This document shows, piece after piece, positions 32,166 to 48,476 of a stretch of DNA of 50,676 nt. Position 1 is the stretch's first letter. Every line of letters begins with the position of its first letter. Location: the NCBI GenBank assembly GCA_028282405.1, contig JANQIA010000254.1, positions 1-50,676 on the forward strand, in the 5' to 3' direction. This DNA comes from Rhodovibrionaceae bacterium (GTDB lineage: Bacteria; Pseudomonadota; Alphaproteobacteria; Kiloniellales; DSM-21159). The notes beneath the pieces are model-generated. The model was not told the origin of the DNA. It saw only the letters and a program-made list of their open reading frames with translations, and made no database searches. The translations under genes and the position numbers were made by a program.

Positions 32166-32485
32166 ACTTCAGCCGTCAAGCATCGCCCAGTATGGCGCGC
32201 GACCTGTATCGCCTGATGCCGGGCAATCATGACGATCGGAGCGCGCTACGGGCCGCCTTTCCAGACATTGAGCCTGCAGTCGCGGTTGGACACGCCCGCC
32301 GGCGTGCTTCTGTTTCTCGACACGGTGGAAGCCGGCATCCATTCCGGCGTCTATTGCAAGCAACATTGCCATTGGCTGGAGCGCGCCCTGACCGAAGCCG
32401 AGGACGAGCCCGTCTATCTCTTTCTCCATCACCCGCCGATGGAGATCGGCATGCCGCGCCTCGACCAGTACCGAATCCTGCGGCT
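32166..32485 (+). pseudogene. Fragment of a CpdA-like metallophosphoesterase, frameshifted
   Basis: Two frames joined give the middle of a cyclic-AMP phosphodiesterase: RLMPGNHDDRSALRAAFPDI in one frame, then GVLLFLDTVEAGIHSG and EPVYLFLHHPPMEIGMPRLD in another. The GNHD and HHPP metal motifs are plain, but the N-terminus and the C-terminal GHxH motif are missing. The fragment ends where the IS630 fragment starts, so it was broken by insertion and deletion. Confidence 0.7.
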
Positions 32486-33153
32486 CGGGGGCTCTTGTGG
32501 GTCGAGAGGTGGTCGAGAATGACGACGGTTGCCGGCTTCAGGCGGGGCGCGAGTTGGGTCTCGACATAAGCGTCGAAGGTCGGTCCGTTCATGGCGCGGT
32601 CGACCACCCAGGGCGCGATCAGCCCGTTGCACGCCAGACCTGCGATGAAGGTTTGGGTGCGCCGCTTGCCGAAGGGCACGGGTCCGTAGAGGCGCTCGCC
32701 TATGGGCGCGCGACCGCGCAGTCGGGTCAAGTTGGTCTTGATGGAGGTCTCGTCGATAAAGACCAGGCGACGGGGTTCGCGACGCATGCGGGGCTGTCGG
32801 TGGCGTATCCAGCGCTGGCGCGCCTTGGCCACGTCGGGACGCTCATCCTCGGCGGCGATCAAGTCTTTTTATATGACTGCCCGACCCGAGCGAGCGCGCG
32901 GTTTACCGAGGAACGATGCGCCGCCACGCCACGCTCCACCTCAAGAGCCGCGGTCAGTTCATGCAAGGTCATGTCCGGTTGGGCGCGAACCTTCTCCAGC
33001 AGGAAGTCTATATGCGCCACCAGCTTGCCGAACTTCCCCGCCGGCCGGCCCTGAGGCTTCGCCGAGCACCCGCCCCGCTGATCGCGCCGAATCGCCCTCC
33101 CGGACGTAGGCGGCCAGACGCTCTCGAAGATCATTCGAGTAGGGTTTGCCCAT
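32486..33153 (-). mobile_element. Degraded IS630-family transposase
   Basis: On the minus strand the start MGKPYSNDLRERLAAYVREG is typical of IS630 transposases. The helix-turn-helix middle is deleted, and the sequence resumes in another frame at GRPAGKFGKLVAHIDFLLEK. Between SYKKT and IAAEDERPDVAKAR lies an A-run (TAAAAAG) and a frame change, as in the ORFA/ORFB frameshift of some IS630 elements. The DDE domain (VFIDETSIKTN, then VVILDHLSTHKS) stops at HKSP, before the last acidic residue. The element cannot be active. Confidence 0.8.
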
Positions 33154-33338
33154 GACACACCTCCATACACGGTGGATCACAAAGCGCCCCCCGTGGGAAT
33201 CCTCAACGATTCACATCAAAAGTGAAACGCTTTAGAAAAAACATAAATTTCTCGGGCAACACCCCAAGTGCTCTGAAGGCCACCGCTTCCTGCAGTACTT
33301 CACTCTTAATCGTCAACGTCATAGCCGCGGCATCCAGA

Positions 33339-33761
33339 TCAACTTTGTAAGCCGTTCTTACCCGGACCATCGTCAGCCAACACAGCCACCAGATCTCGCG
33401 CCGCCCCCAAGTGAAGCGCCAAGTCGTCGGCCGCAATACCGAAATGCGTTCTCAATTCGCTCATCCGTTCCTCCAACCGCATCAGGGCCAGGCCAAGCCG
33501 TTCGATTTCATCGTCTGACAATTTACCGCTCTCAACTCTGCGGATGGCCTGCCGCTCCACGAGTTGCCGCACCGTTTCGACCACGGCCAGGACGAGCCTC
33601 ACAAGATCATCCTCCGCGCCTTCTTCGGCTTTTGTCTCGAGGCCTTCGGGCCGCGGCAAGAGGTCGGCCCGATCAGGCACTTCCTTGGCATCCGCCCCGC
33701 TTCCGTCGTCGAGCAAGACCTTTCTTGTCATATCGCCGCTAATGCCCGCCCGGTCGATCAT
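33339..33761 (-). CDS. gvpK: Gas vesicle protein GvpK
   Basis: GvpK is a helical accessory protein needed for vesicle assembly in most clusters. The core LVRLVLAVVETVRQLVERQA, then IERLGLALMRLEERMSELRT and ADDLALHLG matches the family. The start is ATG 33761, overlapping the stop of the preceding gvpF/L gene as ATGA; the frame further upstream is a shadow. The first 45 residues are poorly conserved and acidic. It is the last recognisable gene of the gas-vesicle cluster and has 140 residues. No clear gene follows before the IS remnant: 33154-33338 holds only a short frame I do not trust. Confidence 0.92.
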   Translation of the reverse strand: MIDRAGISGDMTRKVLLDDGSGADAKEVPDRADLLPRPEGLETKAEEGAEDDLVRLVLAVVETVRQLVERQAIRRVESGKLSDDEIERLGLALMRLEERMSELRTHFGIAADDLALHLGAARDLVAVLADDGPGKNGLQS

Positions 33762-34477
33762 GCCTGCTCCTCTTTTCCGATGCCGGTCACGAAAGAGTAT
33801 GGAGCCCACGGGCCGGTGCAGCGCACCACGACTTCACCATGGCGCAATGCCAAGGCCTCGGCCGTATCGACGAATTCGCGCACTCCCTCACTCGCGATCA
33901 GAAAGGATGCTTTGAACAGCAACGGCAACTCATGCCCGCGATCCCAGGTGGCCTCCGCAGACAACGTCTCCAGCCGGCTAAGAACTGACATGGCGACCGC
34001 CTCACGCAGTTCGCAATGCGGCGCGCTTTGCCGGCGATCTGCCATTCGCGACCGCAGATATGCCGTCCCTGACGACCGGGCGCCATCTTTCTCGTATGGA
34101 TGGTGGCGGATTGGCACAGCGACCGCCGGGAGATTCGTGAGCACCCGAACGGCAATCTCGACCATACCGCTCACGCGCTGAAGCGCGCAGCACAATGCAA
34201 GCTGGCGCATCTCCAAGGCGGTGGTAAGCCGCCCGCGATGCGCAGTCGTGCCAAAACGCATCGGCAGCACCGCATGCCGCTCCATCAACGCGTCAAGAAC
34301 CTGGTCATGGCGGCAGACGTTGTCGGCCGTCGGCGCCACCATATCCGACTGAGCAACATCGCTGACGGCGGCAGCGAGACCGCCCACCGGCAGTGCCGCC
34401 ACACTCGACCGGTGGTGACCGCGGGGGATGGTCGTGCGGATCTCGCTACCATCTATGATTCCATAGACGTAGAGCAT
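33758..34477 (-). CDS. Gas vesicle GvpF/GvpL-family protein (fourth copy)
   Basis: GvpF/L proteins are assembly factors that bind GvpA. This one, 239 residues, starts MLYVYGIIDGSE and has the family features HAVLPMRFGT (end of the first domain) and CTGPWAPYSFV near the C-terminus. The central region is diverged. It starts two bases after the short GvpA paralogue and overlaps gvpK. Four family members in one cluster is a high number, and they probably have divided roles. Confidence 0.9.
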   Translation of the reverse strand: MLYVYGIIDGSEIRTTIPRGHHRSSVAALPVGGLAAAVSDVAQSDMVAPTADNVCRHDQVLDALMERHAVLPMRFGTTAHRGRLTTALEMRQLALCCALQRVSGMVEIAVRVLTNLPAVAVPIRHHPYEKDGARSSGTAYLRSRMADRRQSAPHCELREAVAMSVLSRLETLSAEATWDRGHELPLLFKASFLIASEGVREFVDTAEALALRHGEVVVRCTGPWAPYSFVTGIGKEEQA

Positions 34478-35537: not shown

Positions 35538-36554
35538 CTATCCATCGCCGATGGCAAATGCCGGCTCAGTCCGGTTCACCGCGATTAGGACTGGTCCGCG
35601 GGCATCAACATATGAGGAGAGTGTCGTGAACGCATCATTCAGTTCGGCGATTCGTTCGCCTACGTCGGTACCGCCCGAGGTGTCCGGGTGTACCAGCTTG
35701 GCGAGCCGCCGGTACGCCGCTTGCACTGTCTTGGCGTCTTGAATGACATCCAGTTCCAGTAGCCGCCGAGCTCGAGCGATTTTATCTGCGTCAAGGAACG
35801 ATAATTCGACAGTTGCGAAACTGTACGACGGCAAAGGGCCGATGCAGCGGAATGTCAACTTACCATCATATGACGCATCGAGTGTTTCGAGGCTGTCATC
35901 AAGCGCGGCGGCCTTCTGGTCATCGATCAGCAGTGCGATGTTCAACACCATTCGGTCGTCCATAAGCGCATTGGTGACGGCGTCCTCTGCTATCTTCCGC
36001 AAGACCTCCGCAATAACGTCACTCACTTCCTCACGGCGCCGGTCAAAAAACTGCTTGGCGAGCACACCAAGTCGCGCCACAGCGACGGGATCGGGCGCGC
36101 CAGCACTCGTCATCAACTGCTGCTTCAGCTCGACGATCTTAGGGTTGGCGGCGATGGCGGCGAAAACGGGCTCCGGATCCCAAGTTACCAGAATCTCGAA
36201 CTGCGTTCTTCCTTTCATCCGTTGGAGTGCATCGGCGAACGCTGCGGCACCATTTGTGAGACAGCGCACGACACTTCCTCCATCAGGGGCCACAGTGCCG
36301 AACTTGACCGGAAGGACTGGTGTCCATGCCATGACGCGCTCGATGACTTCCTGGTGCGCCAGCAGCATCCGAGCCAACTCCTGGCGATCGCCAGTGACAG
36401 GCGAAGACGTAGCCGCGTTCTTTACGACGGCAGCGAAGTGTCTGCCCTTGATCAGATAGATCTCGTCGTCAAGCCTTTCGGGAAGCCATCCCCCTTCGGG
36501 ATTCGGCACGATCGCATAGAGATAGCGCGCGGTGTCGCGATGGTTGCTTGACAT
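35538..36554 (-). CDS. GvpF/GvpL protein fused to a C-terminal J-domain
   Basis: Residues 10-250 are a GvpF/L protein (YLYAIVPNPEGG; TPVLPVKFGTVAP; DRMVLNIALLIDDQ; CIGPLPSYSFATVEL). About 75 further residues then form a J-domain-like unit at about 263-316: ARRLLELDVIQDA, TVQAAYRRLAKLVHPDTSGG with the His289-Pro290-Asp291 triad, and RIAELNDAFTTLSSY. J-domains recruit and stimulate Hsp70 (DnaK). This protein could bring DnaK to GvpA during vesicle assembly. The start is ATG 36554, five bases after gvpJ; the frame to 36686 is a shadow. The assignment rests on the HPD triad and its flanking helices, which I consider good. Confidence 0.85.
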   Translation of the reverse strand: MSSNHRDTARYLYAIVPNPEGGWLPERLDDEIYLIKGRHFAAVVKNAATSSPVTGDRQELARMLLAHQEVIERVMAWTPVLPVKFGTVAPDGGSVVRCLTNGAAAFADALQRMKGRTQFEILVTWDPEPVFAAIAANPKIVELKQQLMTSAGAPDPVAVARLGVLAKQFFDRRREEVSDVIAEVLRKIAEDAVTNALMDDRMVLNIALLIDDQKAAALDDSLETLDASYDGKLTFRCIGPLPSYSFATVELSFLDADKIARARRLLELDVIQDAKTVQAAYRRLAKLVHPDTSGGTDVGERIAELNDAFTTLSSYVDARGPVLIAVNRTEPAFAIGDG

Positions 36555-36559
36555 GACGT

Positions 36560-36877
36560 TTACCCCGGCTCCTGTTCGGACGATTGCGCCAGCAACGTCT
36601 CGAGACGGGCGATACGCTCCTGCAAAGCGGCATTCTGCTCGTCTGACTTTGCGATCGACGTAGCCAGAAAGGGATCGTTCTGCCACCAGTCGATACCCAT
36701 CTCCATCGCCTTGTCGACCGACGCGATCAGCAAACGCAGCCGAATGTTGAGGAGCTCCACACCGACCAGGGAGATTGTCACGTCGCCAGCGATGACGACG
36801 CCCTTGTCGAGGACCCGATCGAGCACATCCGCCAGCCCGACGGATTGGATGGAGTGCTCCATGCTACCGTTGCGCAT
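36560..36877 (-). CDS. gvpJ: GvpA-family paralogue GvpJ
   Basis: The 105-residue protein has a GvpA core (LADVLDRVLDKGVVIAGDVT, then ISLVGVELLNIRLRLLIASV) followed by a longer C-terminal tail with DKAMEMGIDWW and a heptad-like helix (LQERIARLETLLAQ). This extended form is typical of GvpJ, a minor component active early in vesicle formation. ATG 36877 has GGAGG five bases upstream; ATG 36862 is possible. Confidence 0.87.
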   Translation of the reverse strand: MRNGSMEHSIQSVGLADVLDRVLDKGVVIAGDVTISLVGVELLNIRLRLLIASVDKAMEMGIDWWQNDPFLATSIAKSDEQNAALQERIARLETLLAQSSEQEPG

Positions 36878-36904: not shown

Positions 36905-37186
36905 TCAGCGAACAAGACCTGCGGCCCGCTCAACCAGAACCGCCGTCCTGTCCCGCAGCCGTGACACCTCTTGGCACAAGCGGCAGTTCGAGTTGTCGAC
37001 ATCATAGGCTGTGCAGCTCAGCAACTTGCCGACAGTGCATCGCAGCTCGCTCGCCAGCAGCGCCTTCGCTGCCGGGCTTTGAGCCTGGTTGATGGAGACC
37101 GTGATCTGCTCGATCTCACGTTCAGTAGGAGCGAACAGGTCGATGGGACAGTCGATACCAACTTTCCCGGAAGCGCCGCGTCTCAC
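36905..37186 (-). CDS. Unrecognised small protein with five Cys, within the gvp cluster
   Basis: A 93-residue protein whose start codon overlaps the gvpO stop as ATGA, so it is surely translated with it. It has five cysteines (CPIDLF, LRCTV, SCTAYD, and CRLC in NSNCRLCQEV), the last two as C-x-x-C, and is otherwise helical with an amphipathic C-terminus (VSRLRDRTAVLVERAAG). I do not recognise a named Gvp family. The CxxC pair may bind a metal or be redox-active; that is a guess. Confidence 0.7.
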   Translation of the reverse strand: MRRGASGKVGIDCPIDLFAPTEREIEQITVSINQAQSPAAKALLASELRCTVGKLLSCTAYDVDNSNCRLCQEVSRLRDRTAVLVERAAGLVR

Positions 37187-37593
37187 ATCGACTCTCCCAC
37201 CTGATCGCGGAAATAGCGGCGACCACGGCGATAGTCGATGATGTCGCCCGTCTTATCCAAGCCCACGACGTACTCGGCCAAAACATCCGTGGCCGGCGGG
37301 ATCCGACTGAGCTCGACCACCGTGATCGTCATTCGCCAGCCATCTTCCACACGACCGAATTCGGATACGCTGTCGATCGGGTAGCCGGTGAGCTCCTTCA
37401 ATTGTCCTTTGGCCTTCTCGATCAAGTCGACCGGCCGCAGTCGAGGCGTCATGGGCGTCTTGCTCTCCGGTGCGGCACTCTCTCCCGTTCCGCTCGCCCG
37501 ACCGGCGGCCGCCTTGGGCGTCTTCGCCCCACTTGGAGCCGTCTCCGGCCTAACAGCTTCACGCGGCCCGGAAGGCGAATTTGGCTTAGCCAT
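37183..37593 (-). CDS. gvpO: Gas vesicle protein GvpO
   Basis: The C-terminal 90 residues match GvpO: LIEKAKGQLKELTGYPIDSV, then DGWRMTITVVELSRIPPATD, LAEYVVGLD and YRRGRRYFR. The first 45 residues are a Pro/Ala/Ser/Lys-rich flexible tail, as in many GvpO proteins. GvpO is essential for vesicles in haloarchaea and common in bacterial clusters. The gene overlaps gvpG by eight bases. Confidence 0.9.
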   Translation of the reverse strand: MAKPNSPSGPREAVRPETAPSGAKTPKAAAGRASGTGESAAPESKTPMTPRLRPVDLIEKAKGQLKELTGYPIDSVSEFGRVEDGWRMTITVVELSRIPPATDVLAEYVVGLDKTGDIIDYRRGRRYFRDQVGESM

Positions 37594-37828
37594 CGTCCCT
37601 GACCTCTCTTGCCGTTTTCAGGCGCTGCAAAAGCACCTCTTCCTGCGCTTCGAAATCGGTGAGTTCGATCTCGCCAAGATCGAGTTGCAACTCCAGCTCC
37701 GCTAAGTCGCCGCGTATCTTGTCTTCGTCATAGAGTTCAGCTCTGGCCTGGTCGTCGATCGTTCGGGCCAGCCACAGCACCCCTCGAAGTGGTCCCAACA
37801 CCGGTGCGGTAAGAATTCGCCCGAGCAT
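37586..37828 (-). CDS. gvpG: Gas vesicle protein GvpG
   Basis: 80 residues from ATG 37828, two bases after the gvpF stop. The N-terminus MLGRILTAPVLGPLRGVLWL is hydrophobic and typical of GvpG; the rest is an acidic helical coiled coil (LAELELQLDLGEIELTDFEA). GvpG is a small assembly factor nearly always next to gvpF, as here. Confidence 0.88.
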   Translation of the reverse strand: MLGRILTAPVLGPLRGVLWLARTIDDQARAELYDEDKIRGDLAELELQLDLGEIELTDFEAQEEVLLQRLKTAREVRDDG

Positions 37829-37830
37829 GT

Positions 37831-38610
37831 TCAGACCACCACCTCGGCGTCCCAATCGACAACGATATTGATGAAATTGTAAGGCGGCACAGGGCCGACA
37901 TACTTGAACATCAGCCGGTCACGGAACTTCTCGTCCAGCGCCTGCACTGCGGCGTCGACGTCTGGCTCCTTCGCCGCATCGACCAGCAACGCGGCGTTCA
38001 GCACCATGCGGTCGCTGGTGATCTTGTTGGTGCGTGTCTTGTACACATGCGGCCGGATGCAGGAGAGGATGGCCTCCTCTTCGCGTACACGCTTCTGGCT
38101 CAGCGCCTTTTCCACCGCCTCGCCAAGCCAAATCCGCTCATAGTAGGTCTCGGCCAACGAACGCCCCTCAAGAGCATCGCGCATTTTTCGGATGGCTTCG
38201 TTTTCATGCACCACCTCTTCGACGGCGACACCTTCGTACCAGAATGCTTTCAAACCGAGCTCGACACGGCCTTCCATGCCGCCAAGAAGCTGCGTGAATT
38301 CGTCGTAGCGGGGCGCCAGGAGCTTCGTTCTGATTGCCGCGGGGTCCGGCGAGATGGTGCCGAAACGAACAGGCAGGAGATCGAACTCCTCCATCACATC
38401 GTCAAGCACCAGCATGTGCGCCATCAAATTGCGCCGGCTGTTGTCATATTCCATCACGGGAGAGTCGCTGACCACGGCCGCCAATCTTCTGTGATTGATG
38501 GTATGAACCAAGTCTCCACGTTCGCCGATGCCGCGCACACGGAACTCGCGCGGCTCCGAGCACTCGACAATCGCATAGAGGTATTTGCCTTCGGCCACCT
38601 CCGGCTCCAT
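37831..38610 (-). CDS. gvpF: Gas vesicle protein GvpF (GvpF/GvpL family, first copy)
   Basis: A 259-residue protein with all family landmarks: KYLYAIVECSEPREF, RRLAAVVSDSPV, FDLLPVRFGTISPD, SDRMVLNAALLVD and FKYVGPVPPYNFINIVV. It is the most canonical of the four copies. Its start overlaps the gvpH stop by one base (TAATG) and gvpG follows, the usual F-G order. GvpF binds GvpA and is found on the inner face of the vesicle in some systems. Confidence 0.92.
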   Translation of the reverse strand: MEPEVAEGKYLYAIVECSEPREFRVRGIGERGDLVHTINHRRLAAVVSDSPVMEYDNSRRNLMAHMLVLDDVMEEFDLLPVRFGTISPDPAAIRTKLLAPRYDEFTQLLGGMEGRVELGLKAFWYEGVAVEEVVHENEAIRKMRDALEGRSLAETYYERIWLGEAVEKALSQKRVREEEAILSCIRPHVYKTRTNKITSDRMVLNAALLVDAAKEPDVDAAVQALDEKFRDRLMFKYVGPVPPYNFINIVVDWDAEVVV

Positions 38611-39158
38611 TAGGGCGCCATCCTTTTCCCGGCTCGGACTTCAAGCAAACCGTTGCTGTAGCTCATTCCGAGACTGTCTTCCGCGACTGGCACCGACAGC
38701 CACAGTTCTTTGGCATACTGCCGTTCACCGATCGTCTTGATTGTCAGCCTCTCGCCGTCCACCCGGACCAGGATTTCATCCTCGAAGACGCCCGGAAGCT
38801 CGACTCTCACGACGATCTCGTCGCCTTGATCAAGCACATCGACCAGGGGCTCGTGGACATCTCCGACGATGAACCCGTCCGCGCGCGGGTGCAGGTTGCC
38901 GAAGGTCTCGATGCGCGGCTCTCCACCGACGAGTCCGCTGCGGATGCTGAGGCCGTAAACCCCGCGCGCCTGGTCACCCAAGCCCCAGATACGAAACTCG
39001 CCGCGGCGTTCGATATGAGCTTCTCCCGCGTCGGCTAGTTTGCGGAGCAGATCAGCGAAGTTGCCGAGCCGCCGAAACAGCACTCCGAAGTCGAGCGTGA
39101 CGTCATTCAAGCTGCCGCTACGCTCTGGCGAGTCCTCTCCGTTCCGTTCATCGGTCAT
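38610..39158 (-). CDS. gvpH: Gas vesicle protein GvpH (Hsp20/alpha-crystallin-like)
   Basis: The last 80 residues form an Hsp20-like beta sandwich: EPLVDVLDQGDEIVVRVELP, then GERLTIKTIG and the NG-L motif MSYSNGLLEV. The first part (LDFGVLFRRLGNFADLL) matches the N-terminus of GvpH. ATG 39158 is the likely start, giving 182 residues; the frame extends to 39182. GvpH is thought to act as a chaperone for vesicle proteins. Together with the J-domain protein in the cluster, two chaperone-like parts are present. Confidence 0.88.
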   Translation of the reverse strand: MTDERNGEDSPERSGSLNDVTLDFGVLFRRLGNFADLLRKLADAGEAHIERRGEFRIWGLGDQARGVYGLSIRSGLVGGEPRIETFGNLHPRADGFIVGDVHEPLVDVLDQGDEIVVRVELPGVFEDEILVRVDGERLTIKTIGERQYAKELWLSVPVAEDSLGMSYSNGLLEVRAGKRMAP

Positions 39159-39208
39159 GGCTGATCCTGGCTTTAGCGGCAAAGGCAGAAAATCACATTG
39201 GCCGCCTT

Positions 39209-39568
39209 CTAGTAGTCGATCGAAATGGTCCGCCTTTCCGACGCAGCGCTCGCGCGCAACTCCGCCCGCGCGGGCTGCCGCCTCCCGAAGACTGCTCGAT
39301 GCTCTTGGGGGCGTGGAGGCCGATCGGCGAGCAGCAGTGAGCGTATGGCATCGATCTGTCGACAGATGCCACCCAACCTATCTTCGATCGCCGCCTTCCG
39401 CTGTTCCCACATGCCAAGCTCTCGCTCCAGCCGCGCGCGTTCGTTCTCCAAACGGGCAAACCGAGTGACCTGCTGATGCCGCTCACGCGGCAGTTTCGCT
39501 TGAACAAGAGTCTGCATGGTCACCACTTCGCCAACGCTTCTGGCTCCACCCTTCGGTCGATCAACCAT
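39209..39568 (-). CDS. Small coiled-coil Gvp accessory protein (GvpV-like?)
   Basis: 119 residues from ATG 39568, overlapping the gvpN stop by eight bases. A long charged helix (FARLENERARLERELGMWEQ, then RKAAIEDRLGGICRQIDAIR) forms a coiled coil; the C-terminus is basic. Its place right after gvpN is where gvpV is found in Gram-negative clusters, and the size agrees, so I suggest a GvpV-like role. The match is by context and style, not by a firm motif. Confidence 0.6.
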   Translation of the reverse strand: MVDRPKGGARSVGEVVTMQTLVQAKLPRERHQQVTRFARLENERARLERELGMWEQRKAAIEDRLGGICRQIDAIRSLLLADRPPRPQEHRAVFGRRQPARAELRASAASERRTISIDY

Positions 39569-40583
39569 GCCCACCCCCTGTTTGAATGGAAGCGACCCTG
39601 TCTTGTTCCGTCCTCTGCCTGTCGGCCTTGGCGGCGGGAGGACGCGGGGAGCAATGATGCTCAATCAGACTCAACAGCATTTTCTGCTGCTGAGCACGCA
39701 TGTTTGCCGACTTGCCAGCGAATGCCGATTTGGAACCGAGCACGTCGAGGCAAACCTGAACAAAGTAAGCATCCTCGATCGATGGTTTCAGCTTCTGCTG
39801 AGCGACGACCCGTGAGATCATGACGCTGGTCCGCAAGGTCGGCACCTGATCGTATTCGCCTGTGTCGCGGAACTCGCGCACCAGATCAACTATTGGCCCG
39901 ACCTGATGGTGGGGCAGACCGGACCTGGCCGTCGCAACAGCGACTTCCAGTTCGCGGTCGGCTCGATCGACATCAATCGTCACGATACGGTCGCCAAGCG
40001 CATCCTGAGCCTCATGCACACCGGCATATTCCTGCGGGTTACTGGTAAAGATCACCCGGAAGTCGGGATGCACTTTGATGTAGGGCTCATCCTGGTTCTG
40101 TGCTGGCAGGACCAGCAGCCCCTCTTCAAGCACGCTAAGCAGGACATTGTTTGCCTCAGCACGCGAACGGGTAAACTCGTCATAGATGAGCGTGAAACCT
40201 TCTCGGCAAGCCGTGGTCAGGCGGTGATCCGCCCAGCGCTTGTCGGCACTTTCCTCGACTTTCGTAACGGTATGTATGAACTTGTCGACGACCCGGCGGT
40301 AGTTGTAGCCATGCTGGGTACCGACCAGGTTCGAGGTCACCATTTCCTCGTCGCCGGTAATCATCACCGTCGGCCGGTTGAGTTGCGCTGCCGTATGCAG
40401 GGCAAGCGTGGTCTTGCCTGTTCCAGCCGGCCCGCGGAAGTGCACCGAGAAGCCTGCATTTAGATAGGCCAGCGCGCGCTTGGCGATTGATTTGACGCTG
40501 TCAGTCTGCACGAAGTCACCACGTGCCCGCGGCGTCAACGTCGTGACTCCATCCGAATACTCAGCGGTAGCCGCAGCTGGCAT
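39561..40583 (-). CDS. gvpN: Gas vesicle AAA+ ATPase GvpN
   Basis: A MoxR-type AAA+ ATPase. Counted from ATG 40583, Walker A is GPAGTGKT at 51-58 and Walker B is LIYDE at 132-136, with sensor Asn in FTSNPQEYAG. Family signatures include YLNAGFSVHFRGPAG and SNLVGTQHGYNYRRVVDKFI. ATG 40583 follows an AAGGGGTGGG stretch; a GTG at 40607 would add eight residues. GvpN uses ATP for vesicle growth and shape, probably acting on GvpC or GvpA. Confidence 0.93.
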   Translation of the reverse strand: MPAAATAEYSDGVTTLTPRARGDFVQTDSVKSIAKRALAYLNAGFSVHFRGPAGTGKTTLALHTAAQLNRPTVMITGDEEMVTSNLVGTQHGYNYRRVVDKFIHTVTKVEESADKRWADHRLTTACREGFTLIYDEFTRSRAEANNVLLSVLEEGLLVLPAQNQDEPYIKVHPDFRVIFTSNPQEYAGVHEAQDALGDRIVTIDVDRADRELEVAVATARSGLPHHQVGPIVDLVREFRDTGEYDQVPTLRTSVMISRVVAQQKLKPSIEDAYFVQVCLDVLGSKSAFAGKSANMRAQQQKMLLSLIEHHCSPRPPAAKADRQRTEQDRVASIQTGGGHG

Positions 40584-40657
40584 TCTATTCACCCACCCCT
40601 TAGACACATCATCGACATCTTGCGCACCGTGCTACCTGCAGACTTTCGGCTGCATCG

Positions 40658-41338
40658 TCAGCCGGCAGTCTGATCGCCATCCGATTTCGGCGCTTTGCCC
40701 GAAGGTTTCGACGCCCCACTTTCGGACTTCGCTTCCGTACCTGCCGACTTGAGCGCAGTATTGGCGGGCTTCGATGAAGCACTTGCGGGCTTCGCGGCCT
40801 TCGGATTTGGTGATGCCTTGGAGTGGAAAGCAGGAGCTTTCGAAGACCTCGCGTCTCCTCCGCGCTTGCTTTGCCTACGCGCATGCTGTTGCCAAATGCG
40901 ATTTGCGCGAGAACGGTCCTCTCTCAACGCCCCGACAAAACTCTCGGCCTCGACGAGTGTCGCCTCGACCTTTGCACGAAGATCGGCCAGATAGGCCGCC
41001 CGGCTGGCCGCTTCACGCGCGCCCATCGCCTCTCTGTCACTTGCGTAGCCGTCCAGCAAATCGTCCACGAACGCACGCAGACCTGAAGCGAAGTCAGCCA
41101 GCTCGCCCCTCAATCGCAGACCGCCGCTGCGCCGCTCGGCGGCAAATCCATCGATAAGATCGTCAGCCCTGCCGCGAATGATCGCCGCCTGACTGAAAAT
41201 CCCCTTCAACTCAGAGTCGACCTTCCCCGCGTGGCTGGCCATTACCTCTGCCAAACCCTCATACACCGCGGAGAGTCGCTTTTCCTGAGCCGCTTCGAGC
41301 CTCTCCGTCAGTTGCGTCATGTTGCTCGCTAGACTCAT
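40658..41338 (-). CDS. GvpC-like outer gas vesicle protein with Ala/Lys/Ser-rich tail
   Basis: 226 residues from ATG 41338, with GGAGG nine bases upstream. Residues 7-150 are almost all amphipathic helix in loose repeats (ERLEAAQEKRLSAVYEGLAE; LRGELADFASGLRAFVDDLL; AYLADLRAKVEATLVEAESF), as expected of GvpC, which wraps and stiffens the vesicle. From about 155 on there is a low-complexity basic tail with repeated K-x-A/S and KP steps. Lying directly between gvpA and gvpN it is in the standard gvpC place. Sequence similarity between GvpC proteins is poor, so the call is by position and form. Confidence 0.7.
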   Translation of the reverse strand: MSLASNMTQLTERLEAAQEKRLSAVYEGLAEVMASHAGKVDSELKGIFSQAAIIRGRADDLIDGFAAERRSGGLRLRGELADFASGLRAFVDDLLDGYASDREAMGAREAASRAAYLADLRAKVEATLVEAESFVGALREDRSRANRIWQQHARRQSKRGGDARSSKAPAFHSKASPNPKAAKPASASSKPANTALKSAGTEAKSESGASKPSGKAPKSDGDQTAG

Positions 41339-41425
41339 TTTTTGCGCCCCTCCAACAATGCAGACTGTTTTCATCAACCGCAGGGGTCACGCCCATATAG
41401 GCCCGCCCCTGCGCATCGCGGTTCA

Positions 41426-41638
41426 CTAAGCTGCTTGGGCCCCGGCCGTTAGGCCGACTGCTTCGGCATACTTGAGGTAGGTGTCGACACCAGCGACGAC
41501 GACCCGGGCCTCAACCGCCAGCAGCTCAATGCCGACCAGCGAGACGCGTGCCCACGCATCGACGATAACCCCTTTGTCGAGGATGCGGTCGACTACCTCC
41601 GCAAGGCTGCTCGATGCGTTCACTTTTTCAATGGCCAT
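41426..41638 (-). CDS. gvpA: Major gas vesicle structural protein GvpA
   Basis: The 70-residue protein is a classic Gvp[21 protein letters not shown], then [20 protein letters not shown] and [13 protein letters not shown]. GvpA forms the ribbed protein wall of gas vesicles. The start ATG 41638 has a GAGGAG site nine bases upstream; the longer frame to 41842 runs through the operator and is not coding. It is the first gene of the cluster and is followed by an 87-base gap before the GvpC-like gene. The leader between the operator pair and the ATG is about 120 bases long. Confidence 0.95.
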
Positions 41639-41882: not shown

Positions 41883-42620
41883 CTACACGACGTATGTAGA
41901 CTTCAGAAGCTCGTCTGCCGGTCGTGGGCCGGCGGGTGCGGTGCACACTGGGTTGGTGGGTATTACGGCCGAGCGAGATAGCGGGCAGGGCTTGGTAGAG
42001 CAATTCAGTGGAGATGACTGCATCATCGGGCAACGCGAAACCGTCAGCAGCACCTCGTGCGCTGATCGACAGCCAAGCTTGGACACGATGTTCTGACGAT
42101 TGCGCTCGACTGCCTTGACGCTTTTGTCGAGCGAATTGGCAATGATCTTGTTTGGCTGCCCCTGCAGCATCAAGTTCAAGACCCGCCGCTCCGGCTCGGA
42201 CAGCATGGCAATCTTCTTCCTCACGGCACGGCACTCGTCACGCTTCTGAATGCGCATCCGGTCCTCAAAACAGAGGCGCTCAATGAAGCCCAAGAACTCG
42301 TTGTCATCTAGTGGCTTCTCGAAAACGGCTGCGGCGCCAGCCTGCATGGCTGCCACCGTCAGGCGGACATCCGCGTAGGCGCTTATGATTACGACTGGTA
42401 TCGACGAGTGGGCGCGCAGCGACTTCAGTACCTCTAGGCCGGAGAGCGCCGGAAGCCGATAGTCAATGACCGCGCAGCCGGGGCGCTTCAAGTCTTCAAG
42501 CGCCATGAAGCCCTCAGGGGAAGCCCACTCTTCATGCAAAAGACCAATTGAGTTGATGATCTCCGCCAAAGAACGACGGAAGCCGGCATCATCGTCGATC
42601 AAATAGACATGCCCAGCCAT
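41883..42620 (-). CDS. FixJ-like response regulator with LuxR-type DNA-binding domain
   Basis: From ATG 42620 the protein has 245 residues. The receiver has the acidic pocket Asp9-Asp11 (YLIDDDAGF), phospho-acceptor Asp53 (AVIDYRLPALSG), Ser80 and Lys102 (FEKPLDD). The LuxR-type helix-turn-helix is at about 141-193 (LSEPERRVLNLMLQGQPNKI, then SVKAVERNRQNIVSKLG). About 50 residues with four Cys follow, which FixJ proteins lack; this may be read-through past a lost stop or a real extension. The kinase gene ends five bases upstream. The closeness to gvpA suggests control of gas-vesicle genes. Confidence 0.9.
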   Translation of the reverse strand: MAGHVYLIDDDAGFRRSLAEIINSIGLLHEEWASPEGFMALEDLKRPGCAVIDYRLPALSGLEVLKSLRAHSSIPVVIISAYADVRLTVAAMQAGAAAVFEKPLDDNEFLGFIERLCFEDRMRIQKRDECRAVRKKIAMLSEPERRVLNLMLQGQPNKIIANSLDKSVKAVERNRQNIVSKLGCRSAHEVLLTVSRCPMMQSSPLNCSTKPCPLSRSAVIPTNPVCTAPAGPRPADELLKSTYVV

Positions 42621-42624
42621 CGCG

Positions 42625-43425
42625 TCACTCGTTTGGGAGCGCAATGCGGAAGCAACTGCCGCGGCGGGCCATCATGGTCTCGTATGATAGGATACCACCG
42701 TGCCATTCGACGACATCTCGGCAAATCGCCAAACCTAGACCGGAGCCTCCGGCGCGGTCCGAAACAAACGGCTCGAACATCTGACTCTTGATCGCATCGG
42801 CCACACCCGGCCCATTGTCGATCACGTCTATCACCACCTGGTCAACGGTGGTCCGTTTCGTCCGCAGCGTCAGCTTCGGCCTCTCGATGGATGCGGATTG
42901 CGCCGCTTCGACACCATTGAGCGAGAGATTGTAGAGTGCGATATGCAGCAACTCCGGAACGGCCTGCACGTTGAGCATACGGTCACGGCATTCCAGACGG
43001 ATCCGAACCGTCTCCTTTCCATACCTACGCCTGAACCGGCATATCGCTTCCCGCAGCAAGTCATGAACGTTCACCGTTTCGCGATGACCGTGCAAACCGC
43101 CGGCCAAAACCCGAAGGTTCTTGATCACGTCGGCTGCGCGCCTCGTTTCCAGCTTGATGGACTCGATCTGCGCAGCCAGCTCGCTTGGGCGGATGACGGG
43201 ATCGTTGATCCGTCGGCCTAGCAATGACGCCAAGTTGGCGATCGTGCCTAGTGGATGATTGATCTCATGCGCCACGTAGGCTGCGACGCTACGCAATGCC
43301 AAGCGATGGGCAAGATGATCCTCGTCTTCCGGCCGCTGCGTACCCCAGGTTACATCGTTGATGGACCGCAGGCGGCTTCGGCCAACGATTGCTTCGGAAT
43401 GACGTGAAGCTTCCATCCGCGCCAT
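42625..43425 (-). CDS. Soluble sensor histidine kinase, partner of the regulator
   Basis: 266 residues. The His box is AAYVAHEINHPLGTIANLAS with His53, of the FixL-like kind. The ATP domain has an N box (ALYNLSLNGVEAA), DNGPG at 203-207 and GGSGLGL at 226-232. There are only about 45 residues before the His box, with no PAS, GAF or membrane segment, so the signal must come from a partner protein or from its own dimer helix. It is encoded just before the response regulator, with a likely shared mRNA. Confidence 0.9.
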   Translation of the reverse strand: MARMEASRHSEAIVGRSRLRSINDVTWGTQRPEDEDHLAHRLALRSVAAYVAHEINHPLGTIANLASLLGRRINDPVIRPSELAAQIESIKLETRRAADVIKNLRVLAGGLHGHRETVNVHDLLREAICRFRRRYGKETVRIRLECRDRMLNVQAVPELLHIALYNLSLNGVEAAQSASIERPKLTLRTKRTTVDQVVIDVIDNGPGVADAIKSQMFEPFVSDRAGGSGLGLAICRDVVEWHGGILSYETMMARRGSCFRIALPNE

Positions 43426-43560: not shown

Positions 43561-44952
43561 TCACGGCACAATGCCGTTTTCAGCTCTCGCCAATTTGTCC
43601 AGACCGAGAAAAGGCAGCAAATCCCCAGTGACGGCCGCCATGCTGTATCGCGCAAGGTGAAGATCAACGATAGCATTCATCCACTGCAGCTCCGCCGTAA
43701 ACAGCTCACCCTGAAGATCCAGCATGTCCATGAAGCTCGTGCGTCCCAGCACGAACTGCTCCTCATAGGCCTGTCTGGCGGAAAGGTTGGCGGCAACGGT
43801 CAGGCCAAAGGCACGCTCACGCTCCTCGCGCGCCGCGAGATCAGCCAGACTGGATGTCACCAGCCGTTCGATGGTCAAGCGACGAGCGTCCTCGCGATAG
43901 CGAGCCTGCTGCAACTGCGCCGCCGCCCGCTCTCGGCGTCCCTGTTCGGCGCCGCCCGAGTATAGCTTGTAGCGCACGACGATACGGGCTCCAACATCGT
44001 AGCGCAGCTCGCCGAAGGACGTGACGTCGAACTGGCGCCCATTGAGCTCCAGGCTGACGCTTGGATAGGCGGCACGGCGTTCCGCCGTCAATTCATCGCG
44101 GGCAGCTTCGACCAGCATTCGGGCTGCTTCGACAGAGGCGTTCTGCGCCAAAGCCAGTTCGATGGCACGGGCCTCATCGAGTAAGATCGGGGGCAGCGGC
44201 AACGGCAACGGTAGGACTTCGGCGGGCAGCCCGAACATCTCCACGTAGGCAGCCTGCGACCGCTTGAGCTCGCTGACTGCCAGGATCAACTGCGCCTGGG
44301 CCTCGTTGGAACGGCTCGTCGCGCGGAGAACGTCGCTCTGAGATCCCGCCCTCATCTCCACACGTTCAACGACATAGCCGGTCAGCCGCTGATGCTCCTC
44401 GAGGTTCTCGGTTGCAAGCTCAACCGCCAACCGATAGCGCAGGACATCAAAGTAAGTCGCCAGCGCCCGCAGCGCGACATCGTTCAAGGCCTCGGCGGCA
44501 GCCGCTTGAGCGGCCTCGGTTCGGGCCGTGACAGCCGAAACCCGATGGTAGCTGCTGCCCGCATCGAAGATCAGCTGGCTGACGGAAACTACTGCATCCT
44601 GGCGCAGCACGGTCTGATTCGGAATGCGTTCCTCTTCGCCGCCAACCGACGTCCGATTGGTCAGAGAGCCGATTGAATCGAAGCCGGCTTCGATCTGCGG
44701 ATAGCGCACCGACCTGGTTTCGCGCAGAGTACCCTGGTTTTCCCCGACCCGCGCCAAGGCTTCTCCGAAGTCCGGATGCCTCCGGGCTGCCTCGATGATA
44801 AGCGACAGAAACCGCTGCGCCTCCGGACTATCGGGACCCGGAGCGACGGGAAACAGGTCGAGCGATTTGGAAAGGCCCTGAGCTTGCGCGGCCGCGGCGA
44901 AGAGTATGCCGATGCAGATGCATGCGGAAAGAACGGTTCTCTGTACGGACAA
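43561..44952 (-). CDS. TolC-family outer membrane efflux/secretion channel
   Basis: A signal peptide (LSACICIGILFAAAAQAQ, cleaved near AQA-Q) begins a 463-residue TolC-fold protein with two repeats of long helices (ALNDVALRALATYFDVLRYR; ERLVTSSLADLAAREERERA) and barrel strands. It is the last of three genes with two RTX proteins, so it is probably the outer-membrane channel of their type I secretion system. The start is TTG 44952, supported by GGAGG five bases upstream. The ABC exporter and the membrane fusion protein are not in the window. Confidence 0.9.
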   Translation of the reverse strand: MSVQRTVLSACICIGILFAAAAQAQGLSKSLDLFPVAPGPDSPEAQRFLSLIIEAARRHPDFGEALARVGENQGTLRETRSVRYPQIEAGFDSIGSLTNRTSVGGEEERIPNQTVLRQDAVVSVSQLIFDAGSSYHRVSAVTARTEAAQAAAAEALNDVALRALATYFDVLRYRLAVELATENLEEHQRLTGYVVERVEMRAGSQSDVLRATSRSNEAQAQLILAVSELKRSQAAYVEMFGLPAEVLPLPLPLPPILLDEARAIELALAQNASVEAARMLVEAARDELTAERRAAYPSVSLELNGRQFDVTSFGELRYDVGARIVVRYKLYSGGAEQGRRERAAAQLQQARYREDARRLTIERLVTSSLADLAAREERERAFGLTVAANLSARQAYEEQFVLGRTSFMDMLDLQGELFTAELQWMNAIVDLHLARYSMAAVTGDLLPFLGLDKLARAENGIVP

Positions 44953-44987
44953 ATGTACCTCCTACGAAAATAGCGAGTTGAGCCGCG

Positions 44988-47900
44988 TCAGCTTCCGATC
45001 ACCAGCGCTGCATGAGCTTCGATACTGGGATCCAGCGCCAACGCGCTTTCTGCCGCGGCAAAAACAAAGTCTTCCGTAGAAAGATCGGCTTCACTGGTTG
45101 GCGCCAGCTCGACCCGCAAGCTTCCATCGATCTGGTCTCCGGCTGCTGTGGTGAACTGTGCATCGGCAAAGTCGATCTGGAAAAAGCCTTGCGCTTCCAG
45201 TGCCGCCGACAAAGCGGCAAGATCGAGGTCGGCCGCTGTCAAGGCACGCGGCCCGCCACCGTCATCCAGGCGGAAGGCTGAGAGATCGATCAGATCCTCG
45301 CCGACGATAAAATCCGCGATCGTCACCTTGCGGGCGAAACCGTCGGACGGCGCAACAATGAACTCATCCTTCCCCGCTCCACCCTCGAGGACAACTGCGC
45401 TATCGGCTGCGGCTGCGTCCCCGAATACGACCAGTAAATCGTCTCCTGCCCCGCCCTTGAGAGCATCGCCGCCGCCCTGACTGATCAGCACATCGTCACC
45501 GTCGTTGCCGATCAGATTGTCATCGCCATCGCCGCCGAACAGGCGGTCGTCGCCGCTCCCACCGACAAGGTGTTCGCTGCCGACTCCGCCACTCAAGACG
45601 TTGCCGCCATCGTCGGCAACCACGCCATCTTCAGTGAGTCGCAGGATGGCGTCGGCGAGGGCGACTTCCTCCGCTTGAACGAAGAACTCGGCGCTCCCGC
45701 TCAGCTCCGATACCCGCCAGATGGGAAGGTTGACGTCTTGTGATGCCCCGGCCGCATTTAGGATTGTCTCCAGGGCATCACGGTTGCTCTCCGGAACCAG
45801 AGAAACCCTTACCTGGGAACTCGCAAGATCGGTCATTGACAGGCTGTCGTAACCGTCGCCGCCAAGGAAGAACGACTCGTTGGTGGCGTCGTCGGGCGCA
45901 AAGGCATCCCGTGCTTCGCTGCCCTCGATGACGACCCCAGTCGGCGTACCGCGGTGCATCGTCACCGGGTTTTCTTCACCGACGATGAGATCGAGAGTCG
46001 CGGCAGCGGATGGGTTGCCGGCCGCGTCCAGGCCGACGACGGACAGGAGGACGCCACCACTAAGCGATGGCGCAACTGCGCTAAGGTCGACTCGGGCGTG
46101 GAAGCGGCCGGCGGAATCCGTGCTGAATGCCAACATGATCGGATCGCCGCCGGCCCCCACCAACGTCACCTCGACCGAGGAGCTACCTGCAGCAGTGCCC
46201 ATTATTACGAAGGCTTCTGCTTCTTCGCCCGGAATGGTGCCGTCGACCTGGTCTAAAACCGGCTGATCAGGTGCTTGCGTATCCAACAGAACTTCGATGG
46301 AGGCGGAAACGGCTTCGCCGCCGCCCTCAGGATAGATCAGCTTGACGGACAGCTCCTTGGTGCCGTCCGTTGCGAGGCCGCCCGGCGGTATCGTTAGAAC
46401 GATCTCGCCAGCGGCAACGTCGTCGGCGGAAATCACTTCGGTGACAGGTGGAGAAAACGACGCTGCATCAAGCAGTAGCTCGACGCGGTCACCCGCGATG
46501 GCTGTACTGGTGGCGAGCGAGACGGTGACAGGAACACCCGCCGCGGCTTCAGCGGCGTTGATGCCGTCGGCGATGGCTTCTGAAACTGTCGGCGGTTCGA
46601 TGAACCGGAGATCAAACGACGTCACGACCGAGATCGTGTCCGCGCTATAGACGGTCTCCCCACCCACTGTTCCGGAATCGGAAAGGTCGACCACGGTACC
46701 GCTGGTGACATCGCCGCCGGAGTCGTCGACCAAGCGAACCGCCAAGGCACCGGGCTCACCAACTCTGAAGCCTTCGGACGGTGTGAAACGGATGCGGGCG
46801 TCAGGGGCCAGGACGAAGGCGGCGCCCTCAGAAACTGCCGGAAGGTCTTGCCACTGCCCGCCGCCGTCGGTCGAGTATTGCCACACGCCCTGGCTGACTG
46901 ACGCTGCATCGGCCACCACAGCCACGCCGGCCAGATCGTTGGCGCTGCTGCCGCCGGTCGATGAAACACTGTCACGCCCGTCGTCCAGCGCCGGACCGAA
47001 CAGCGTCCCCACCAGCACTCCCTCGGACACCAAAGTACCGTTCGAGGAACCGGCGAACGACTGTATCTCCTCACCGTCGGCGATATCCGGGGCATCGTTG
47101 ACCGGTGTGATTTCGATACGGAAGGTTTCCGGCGGCTCCTCCGCTATACCGTCGTAGGACAGGCCTATTTCGACCTGCAGTTCACCGTTGAAGTCCTGCG
47201 GCGGCGTGACTTCGACCTTGTCCAAATCATCATAGTCGATGCTGTAGATGCCGTTATCTGGAACGATCGTCTCGCGTGTCTCTCCGTCCGAGCTGACGGT
47301 CACCCGCTCGACGACGACACCGGCCTGGAGAAAACGAAAGGTGACGCTCTCCACATCGGCCAGTTCGCCGTCCACGAACTTCAGCGCCGGGCTCAGCGCA
47401 AGCGAAAAGGCCTCGTCTTCCTGGCGAACCTCGAAGGAAATTGTCGTCTCGCCTGACGTCTCGATGAGTGTCGCCGGGTCGTCGGCAGCCTGTTCCACAT
47501 CATCCTTCACGGTCTGATCGACAAGCGAGATGTCGAGGAACTGGTTTTCCGGGTCGGTCGCGTTCGTCTCGGCGCCTGCCCCGATCTGCTTCATCAGGTC
47601 CTGAAACTCCGACAAGGCATAGCGGGTGGCCAAGCGCGCGGCCTCGTCCAGGCCGGACTGGGAGGCCAGCTCACCGTTCGTCGCGGCGATCGCCTCCGCC
47701 AGCGCCGTCAGATCCGCAGAATCGGAAGCGCCAAGGCCGCTCTCGTCGAATGCCTGATCGAGGATGGCTTCTACGGTAGCGATGTCCGACAGGTCGGTTG
47801 ACGCGCCTCCGCCGATGGCAGTGGTAACGGCGGTCAGGGCTTTCTCGGCAGCCCCCTCGACCTGCGCGCCTTCCAAGATCGACTGCAGGGACAAGATAGT

Positions 47901-48476
47901 ATTGAGCGCGATCTCCGAGGCATCTTCCACCGCTGCTCCGGCGCCGTTCATGTCGGCCAAAGGATCGAAAGCGATCAGGCCAGTGCCGTCCGGCAGCGTC
48001 AGATTGAAAGCCTCGAGAACCCGGCTCTCAGCTTCGTCGATACTTATGCCGTCCAACTCCGCCAGCTCAGCGACAAGGGTGGTCAAGGGTGTCACCACCG
48101 TCGCCCCGGCTGGAGCCTTGAAGATCGTGTCGTCCAACGGCACGTTAGTCAGGGTGTCGACACCGCCGATTGCAATGATCGTACCCTCGGCTCCAGTCTC
48201 CGTCTGCAAGGTGTAGCGGCCTTCCGCGTCGGTAAAGACCGGCTCGTCGCCGGGGTCCGGCAAGCCGTCGCCGTCCCGGTCCAAGAAGACGGCGGCGCCC
48301 TCGACATAGCCCTTGACAACCTGCCCGCCCTGGGCGGTGACCACTGGCTGTGCGTCGCCGTCTCCACCGCCACCGCCCCCACATGCAGCCAGCAAAGAAA
48401 GGAGGGAAATGCTCGACAACGGGCCCAACTTTCCCGCCTTCCGCCGACTGCTTGTCTGTGATTCGGCTTGCTTCAT
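44988..48476 (-). CDS. Large RTX surface/secreted protein with lipobox-like N-terminus
   Basis: 1162 residues. It starts with a basic, then hydrophobic stretch ending LSLLAAC followed by six Gly, like a lipoprotein signal. Next come a carboxypeptidase-regulatory-like fold (GYVEGAAVFLDRDGDGLPDP), cadherin/Ig-like segments (FRIEITPVNDAPDI; APDQPVLDQVDGTIPGEEAE) and, near residues 955-1005, five RTX calcium repeats of GGxGxDxL type (LVGGSGDDRLFGGDGDDNLI). The C-terminus is acidic and Ala-rich, as in type I secretion signals. It is likely a cell-surface or extracellular calcium-binding protein. The start ATG 48476 has GGAGGTACATT before it. Confidence 0.88.
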   Translation of the reverse strand: MKQAESQTSSRRKAGKLGPLSSISLLSLLAACGGGGGGDGDAQPVVTAQGGQVVKGYVEGAAVFLDRDGDGLPDPGDEPVFTDAEGRYTLQTETGAEGTIIAIGGVDTLTNVPLDDTIFKAPAGATVVTPLTTLVAELAELDGISIDEAESRVLEAFNLTLPDGTGLIAFDPLADMNGAGAAVEDASEIALNTILSLQSILEGAQVEGAAEKALTAVTTAIGGGASTDLSDIATVEAILDQAFDESGLGASDSADLTALAEAIAATNGELASQSGLDEAARLATRYALSEFQDLMKQIGAGAETNATDPENQFLDISLVDQTVKDDVEQAADDPATLIETSGETTISFEVRQEDEAFSLALSPALKFVDGELADVESVTFRFLQAGVVVERVTVSSDGETRETIVPDNGIYSIDYDDLDKVEVTPPQDFNGELQVEIGLSYDGIAEEPPETFRIEITPVNDAPDIADGEEIQSFAGSSNGTLVSEGVLVGTLFGPALDDGRDSVSSTGGSSANDLAGVAVVADAASVSQGVWQYSTDGGGQWQDLPAVSEGAAFVLAPDARIRFTPSEGFRVGEPGALAVRLVDDSGGDVTSGTVVDLSDSGTVGGETVYSADTISVVTSFDLRFIEPPTVSEAIADGINAAEAAAGVPVTVSLATSTAIAGDRVELLLDAASFSPPVTEVISADDVAAGEIVLTIPPGGLATDGTKELSVKLIYPEGGGEAVSASIEVLLDTQAPDQPVLDQVDGTIPGEEAEAFVIMGTAAGSSSVEVTLVGAGGDPIMLAFSTDSAGRFHARVDLSAVAPSLSGGVLLSVVGLDAAGNPSAAATLDLIVGEENPVTMHRGTPTGVVIEGSEARDAFAPDDATNESFFLGGDGYDSLSMTDLASSQVRVSLVPESNRDALETILNAAGASQDVNLPIWRVSELSGSAEFFVQAEEVALADAILRLTEDGVVADDGGNVLSGGVGSEHLVGGSGDDRLFGGDGDDNLIGNDGDDVLISQGGGDALKGGAGDDLLVVFGDAAAADSAVVLEGGAGKDEFIVAPSDGFARKVTIADFIVGEDLIDLSAFRLDDGGGPRALTAADLDLAALSAALEAQGFFQIDFADAQFTTAAGDQIDGSLRVELAPTSEADLSTEDFVFAAAESALALDPSIEAHAALVIGS

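Follow-up and report, generated by a model that had tools for sequence, protein, structure and literature searches.

A gas-vesicle cluster within 50,676 nucleotides of a Rhodovibrionaceae genome (contig JANQIA010000254.1; this whole stretch is referred to below as the window) raises the question of whether vesicle assembly has its own connection to the general DnaK chaperone of the cell. The shell protein of gas vesicles is very hydrophobic and must stay soluble before it is assembled, and GvpF, which is reported to be the main protein that binds the shell protein GvpA, is a proposed chaperone (PMC9501494; PMC11445434). In the literature searched we found no link to the general chaperone machinery.

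We report a GvpF protein, GvpF-J, which carries a J-domain at its C-terminus. Both domains are well known singly, and Pfam would list both of them; it is their combination that appears to be new. No publication on a GvpF/J-domain fusion was found in the literature searched, which covered few subscription journals, so that a negative result there is no proof. The fusion is a widespread GvpF subfamily and not an oddity of the window cluster, and its properties suggest that vesicle assembly draws on DnaK.

The gvpF-J gene and its cluster

The reading frame of gvpF-J runs from an ATG at 36554 to a stop at 35538 without an internal stop. Residues 9-247 of the encoded protein match the Pfam GvpL_GvpF model with 181.6 bits against a cut-off of 23.6 (E = 3.4e-53, profile positions 1-244 of 245), and residues 265-314 match the DnaJ model with 29.8 bits against a cut-off of 27.8 (E = 6.4e-7, profile positions 5-55 of 63), followed in the structural model by a predicted strand. 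The gene and its parts are as follows.

35538..36554, minus strand: gvpF-J, GvpL/GvpF domain and C-terminal J-domain, 338 amino acids; PF06386 and PF00226 above cut-off
35805..36530, minus strand: GvpL/GvpF domain, residues 9-250; Pfam match 9-247, GvpF crystal structures 6l5d and 4qsg matched
35595..35789, minus strand: J-domain, residues 256-320; Pfam DnaJ match 265-314, Foldseek and dN/dS
35682..35690, minus strand: HPD motif, residues 289-291, between helices II and III; invariant in 43/43 fused proteins
35574..35591, minus strand: predicted C-terminal strand after the J-domain, residues 322-327 (VLIAVN); DSSP strand in the model

The fused architecture is real, and we class GvpF-J both as a member of a GvpF subfamily and as a class C J-protein. 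It resembles GvpF/GvpL (4qsg from Microcystis, 6l5d from Anabaena) in the full profile and predicted fold of residues 9-247 and in its place in a gas-vesicle operon, but the GvpF proteins known so far are about 250 residues long, to which GvpF-J adds about 85 residues with the J-domain, and it has its own branch in the tree. With DnaJ and CbpA it shares helices I-III, the HPD motif and a basic helix II, and with the class C (III) J-proteins a J-domain that comes without a G/F region or zinc finger; it differs from DnaJ and CbpA in that the J-domain is C-terminal, the client-binding part would be the GvpF domain and a clear fourth helix is not evident in either the Pfam match or the AlphaFold2 model. 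Many accepted J-domains likewise deviate at helix IV and the KRxxYD end. Most GvpF-J homologues have a similar tail, hydrophobic and then basic, behind the J-domain.

The cluster lies on one strand and encodes, in order, GvpA, a possible GvpC-like protein, GvpN, a 151-aa protein, an Hsp20-like protein, GvpF1, GvpG and GvpO, followed by a 93-aa protein, a second GvpA-like protein, GvpF-J, GvpF3, a third GvpA-like protein, GvpF4 and GvpK. Its principal features are listed here.

41492-41608, minus strand: GvpA
39561..40607, minus strand: GvpN-type AAA+ ATPase; Pfam AAA_5 E = 2.5e-19, position, and homology to the annotated Octadecabacter gvpN
38610..39182, minus strand: Hsp20-like protein; NCBIfam archaeal Hsp20 E = 5.6e-30, below cut-off
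37831..38610, minus strand: plain GvpF F1; GvpL_GvpF 219.6 bits, without J-domain
37586..37855, minus strand: GvpG; Pfam GvpG E = 2e-22
37183..37593, minus strand: GvpO; Pfam GvpO E = 9e-25
36560..36877, minus strand: GvpA-family gene directly upstream of gvpF-J; Pfam Gas_vesicle 63.6 bits
34694..35557, minus strand: plain GvpL/GvpF F3, directly downstream and overlapping the end of gvpF-J; GvpL_GvpF 168.7 bits, without J-domain
33758..34477, minus strand: plain GvpL/GvpF F4; GvpL_GvpF 149.1 bits, without J-domain
33339..33809, minus strand: GvpK; Pfam GvpK E = 3.4e-27

A GvpA-like gene also adjoins gvpF-J in the syntenic clusters of other Alphaproteobacteria. The gene at 38610..39182 had been read in an earlier note, made from the window alone, as an Hsp20-like GvpH: the protein does resemble Hsp20, though weakly (19.3 bits for Pfam Hsp20, cut-off 20.8; 104 for NCBIfam archaeal Hsp20, cut-off 140), while its score does not support membership of the GvpH family (13 against 22).

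Several further genes of the window deserve mention. The 93-aa (36905-37186) and 151-aa (39209-39664) proteins match no Pfam family above cut-off and occupy the same cluster places in Alphaproteobacteria, Chloroflexota and others, and are likely unnamed Gvp parts. Between GvpA and GvpN lies a helical protein of 239 amino acids (40658-41377) which belongs to no Pfam family and which, judged by where it lies and by its composition, may be GvpC-like. Just downstream of gvpK, at the site where related clusters have a CDC48 gene, are transposase-like frames in two overlapping, IS630-like halves (32227-33180). Response-regulator and histidine-kinase genes (41883-43425) immediately precede gvpA in the same orientation and are possible regulators of the cluster; at 43561-48476 a TolC-like outer-membrane protein stands beside a 1162-aa repeat protein with an RTX-like C-terminus, an arrangement comparable to type I secretion loci.

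Predicted fold and conservation of the J-domain

The AlphaFold2 model of the full protein has a mean pLDDT of 87.2 and places the J helices at 256-265, 274-288 and 299-317, in agreement with the J-domain that had been proposed for residues 263-316 from its helix-HPD-helix pattern. Foldseek matches the model to 6l5d and 4qsg at E of about 1e-15 (GvpF TM 0.78) and, with a probability of 1.00, to the J-domains of CbpA (3ucs), DnaJ, Tid1, 4j7z and 5nro_B, the last being the DnaJ J-domain solved bound to DnaK. Superposition with VIA-align gives Z 20.9 to 6l5d_B (236 residues), Z 20.1 to 4qsg and Z 8.0 to 5nro_B (62 residues); a Z of 8 would be weak taken alone, yet it agrees with the sequence evidence for a J-domain. 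The predicted structure thus superposes on both kinds of domain, as had been suggested as a check. Modelled in isolation, the J part reaches a pLDDT of 66, as against about 76-93 per block inside the full-length model, and its closest structures are still J-domains.

The GvpL_GvpF and DnaJ models both match 18/18 homologues (DnaJ at E<=0.01), with the best DnaJ matches reaching E = 2.7e-13, and the HPD motif is intact in all 43 fused reading frames, near duplicates among them. In an alignment of 18 fused proteins only 17 columns are invariant and three of these are the HPD. Within helix II, numbered by E. coli DnaJ, the position of R22 is K or R in 40/43, that of Y25 is Y or F in 42/43 and that of K26 is R or H in 43/43. 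J-domains act on DnaK through residues such as these. Comparison of the window with its sister genome shows purifying selection, with a dN/dS of 0.08 for the J part and 0.21 for the GvpF part, a rough estimate from short sequence.

Recurrence and distribution of the fusion

A Pfam score so near its cut-off, in an assembly fragmented into 536 contigs, might be taken to mean that a frameshift or misassembly had joined a GvpF gene to a dnaJ fragment, or that a random helical pattern had been mistaken for a domain. We give this reading a negligible chance. The sister genome, of the same genus, has a full-length copy at 90% identity, and the complete Octadecabacter arcticus plasmid pOA238_160 has the fusion in a syntenic cluster, where the protein (WP_015497776.1) is annotated as GvpL/GvpF family only. 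The species genomes (about 85,000) were scanned with a single peptide pattern of the GvpF domain, G[KRA]L[TRD][FM]R[CL][IVT]GP, which was derived from fused proteins and is thereby biased to the fused branch, and which contains no J-domain residues. The scan gave 17 confirmed loci, all 17 with a J-domain and HPD, from seven phyla (Pseudomonadota, Acidobacteriota, Chloroflexota, Actinomycetota, Armatimonadota, Rokuibacteriota and WOR-3). Most of the other carriers are known from metagenome bins, and their taxonomy is less certain than for named strains such as Aquabacter spiritensis DSM 9035 and 501b, both of the Xanthobacteraceae; the literature searched held nothing useful on the gas vacuoles of A. 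spiritensis. Since the sister copy is 90% identical and the 17/17 fused loci come from seven phyla, and with J matches down to E = 2.7e-13 among the homologues, chance and a frameshift confined to this assembly are excluded. A broken copy occurs in one genome only (G397), where the J part remains as a separate frame, and the IMG/VR viral collection yielded no relative.

A tree built from the GvpF-domain columns only, by a quick method and with some long branches elsewhere, divides 40 fused from 119 plain proteins by one branch with an SH-aLRT of 100. Because all fused proteins lie on one side of this fully supported branch, they constitute a distinct GvpF paralogue; no member on that side has lost its J-domain, and the tree is consistent with a single origin of the fusion. 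Nearly every gvp-type locus retrieved has a single fused copy, accompanied by at most three plain GvpF. The architecture recurs and goes along with gas-vesicle clusters, a check that the earlier note had suggested, and GvpA is present in 30/31 of the gas-vesicle-type fused genomes tested; in the exception, G445, a contig of 6 kb has gvpN, F, G and O beside gvpF-J.

Of 301 evenly sampled Chloroflexota genomes, 19 have an intact fusion and one has a fusion divided between contigs, whereas 20 have no GvpF but the plain kind, so that about half of the GvpF-bearing genomes have it; this tally was made by hand, with plain GvpF defined as at least 140 bits and six candidates scored per genome, so a distant copy could hide in a plain genome. 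The fusion occurs in 4/246 genomes of the phylum that holds the Thermoleophilia genome and is rare in Alphaproteobacteria and other Pseudomonadota, as are gas vesicles. It is absent from the gas-vesicle clusters of Nostoc, Streptomyces, Spartinivicinus and Methylosinus, and these clusters, together with half of the Chloroflexota, show that the fusion is not a universal need. A J-domain gene that might replace it was sought in the 20 plain Chloroflexota clusters and not found. The fusion could have gone unseen because the clusters seen here to be without it include one each from a cyanobacterium, Streptomyces and a gammaproteobacterium, the sources of most work on gas vesicles.

DnaK and CDC48-type neighbours

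The window contig has no second J-domain and the other seven J-domains of the genome lie elsewhere; the DnaK gene is on contig C422, adjoining the gene with the highest-scoring J-domain, so the cluster indeed lacks a separate dnaJ or dnaK, as had been noted. A canonical DnaK is present in 12/12 genomes tested.

The place of gvpF-J in gas-vesicle operons recurs and is mostly fixed. In 22/43 fused loci (22/36 with the orphan genes described below left out) the gene for a CDC48-type double AAA+ ATPase ends less than 300 nt upstream of gvpF-J, which it often overlaps. Examples are given here.

L058, 7777-10032: CDC48-type double AAA+ ATPase upstream of gvpF-J
L064, 7764-9893: the same; others are similar

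Two loci (L054 and L055) have their CDC48 gene at the cluster end. In the window cluster tblastn found no CDC48 gene or remnant, and the sister and Octadecabacter clusters have none. A CDC48 gene stands anywhere in the cluster in 6/20 plain Chloroflexota clusters, and one is also found in the Methylosinus sp. C49 plasmid cluster, which has the same Gvp parts and chaperone-like genes (an Hsp20-like GvpH and a CDC48-type ATPase) but differs in having a J-domain nowhere in the cluster.

Proposed role of GvpF-J

GvpF-J probably serves gas-vesicle assembly as a J-protein of its own and brings DnaK to a bound client of the GvpA family. Its GvpF domain would bind the shell protein, either GvpA or the GvpA-like protein encoded next door, and its J-domain would dock on the general DnaK and stimulate the DnaK ATPase, such that DnaK would be loaded onto the hydrophobic, aggregation-prone client. 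The client would in this way be kept soluble or be rescued, and would then be handed to GvpG, to further GvpF/L proteins and to the shell as it grows. The CDC48-type AAA+ unfoldase that many lineages encode just upstream probably acts on the same client. We infer the binding and stimulation of DnaK, the identity of the client, the direction of the process (assembly and not disassembly) and the cooperation with CDC48. The plain F1 is closer than GvpF-J to cyanobacterial GvpF, so GvpF-J is not the protein closest to the GvpF with shown GvpA binding.

The main rival to this assembly reading takes the CDC48-type neighbour as its starting point, and has GvpF-J, the AAA+ protein and DnaK pull shell protein out of vesicles that have collapsed or been misassembled, or disaggregate it there. 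Proteins of the CDC48 type act as unfoldases or segregases, and disaggregation is an activity of DnaK/J systems, both of which would fit such recycling, and the CDC48-type gene is within 300 nt upstream in about half of the fused loci as compared with anywhere in fewer than a third of the plain Chloroflexota clusters. Against this, the clusters of the window, the sister genome and Octadecabacter have kept gvpF-J with no CDC48, Methylosinus has CDC48 with no gvpF-J, and nothing ties either gene to vesicle collapse; we regard recycling as rather unlikely. A different proposal, which we find improbable, is that the J fold is kept for another purpose than as a co-chaperone of DnaK, namely as a partner-binding or structural module packed on the GvpF domain. 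It is compatible with the predicted C-terminal strand, with the lack of a clear helix IV and with the better modelling of the J part within the full protein. Against it, basic or aromatic residues of helix II are conserved, and if the role were purely structural there would be no reason for H, P and D to stay invariant throughout in proteins that otherwise vary at most columns.

The proposed role in assembly has a practical side. With a J-domain conserved on one of the GvpF paralogues, the link to DnaK becomes testable by one point mutation (HPD to QPD). For gas vesicles used as imaging agents, an accessory protein able to bring in a chaperone of the host is a candidate aid to heterologous expression.

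An orphan branch without gas vesicles

A divergent branch of the fusion lies outside gas-vesicle genomes. In six alphaproteobacterial genomes, five of them at least 98% complete, the fused gene is present and no GvpA-family gene was found; these are all five sampled members of one family (f167) and one further genome (G172). The orphan genes are located as follows.

L067, 6873-7934: orphan gvpF-J
L068, 6891-7952: orphan gvpF-J
L069, 9899-10993: orphan gvpF-J
L155-L158: orphan gvpF-J

Within the family the gene is in conserved synteny, with a hybrid histidine kinase and a HAMP coiled-coil protein of roughly 1000 amino acids on either side. The dN/dS of the orphan J part between two congeners is 0.010 and the domain is therefore under strong purifying selection without gas vesicles. 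As these genomes lack GvpA, the client of GvpF-J need not always be GvpA, and GvpF domains, to judge from this branch, may act on clients beyond shell proteins. We tentatively raise the possibility, which we hold to be less than even, that GvpF-J works as a DnaK adaptor in its own right, with a GvpF domain that recognises hydrophobic, self-assembling proteins more widely than GvpA, and that the orphan family has kept it for another client. In gas-vesicle cells it would then direct DnaK, and in many cases CDC48, to the shell protein. Two loci from related genomes (L037 and L039) have GvpF-like genes with neither a J-domain nor GvpA, and these lie between an RcpC/pilus-type gene, with a Flp-pilin-like reading frame nearby, and a ribonucleotide-reductase-like gene.
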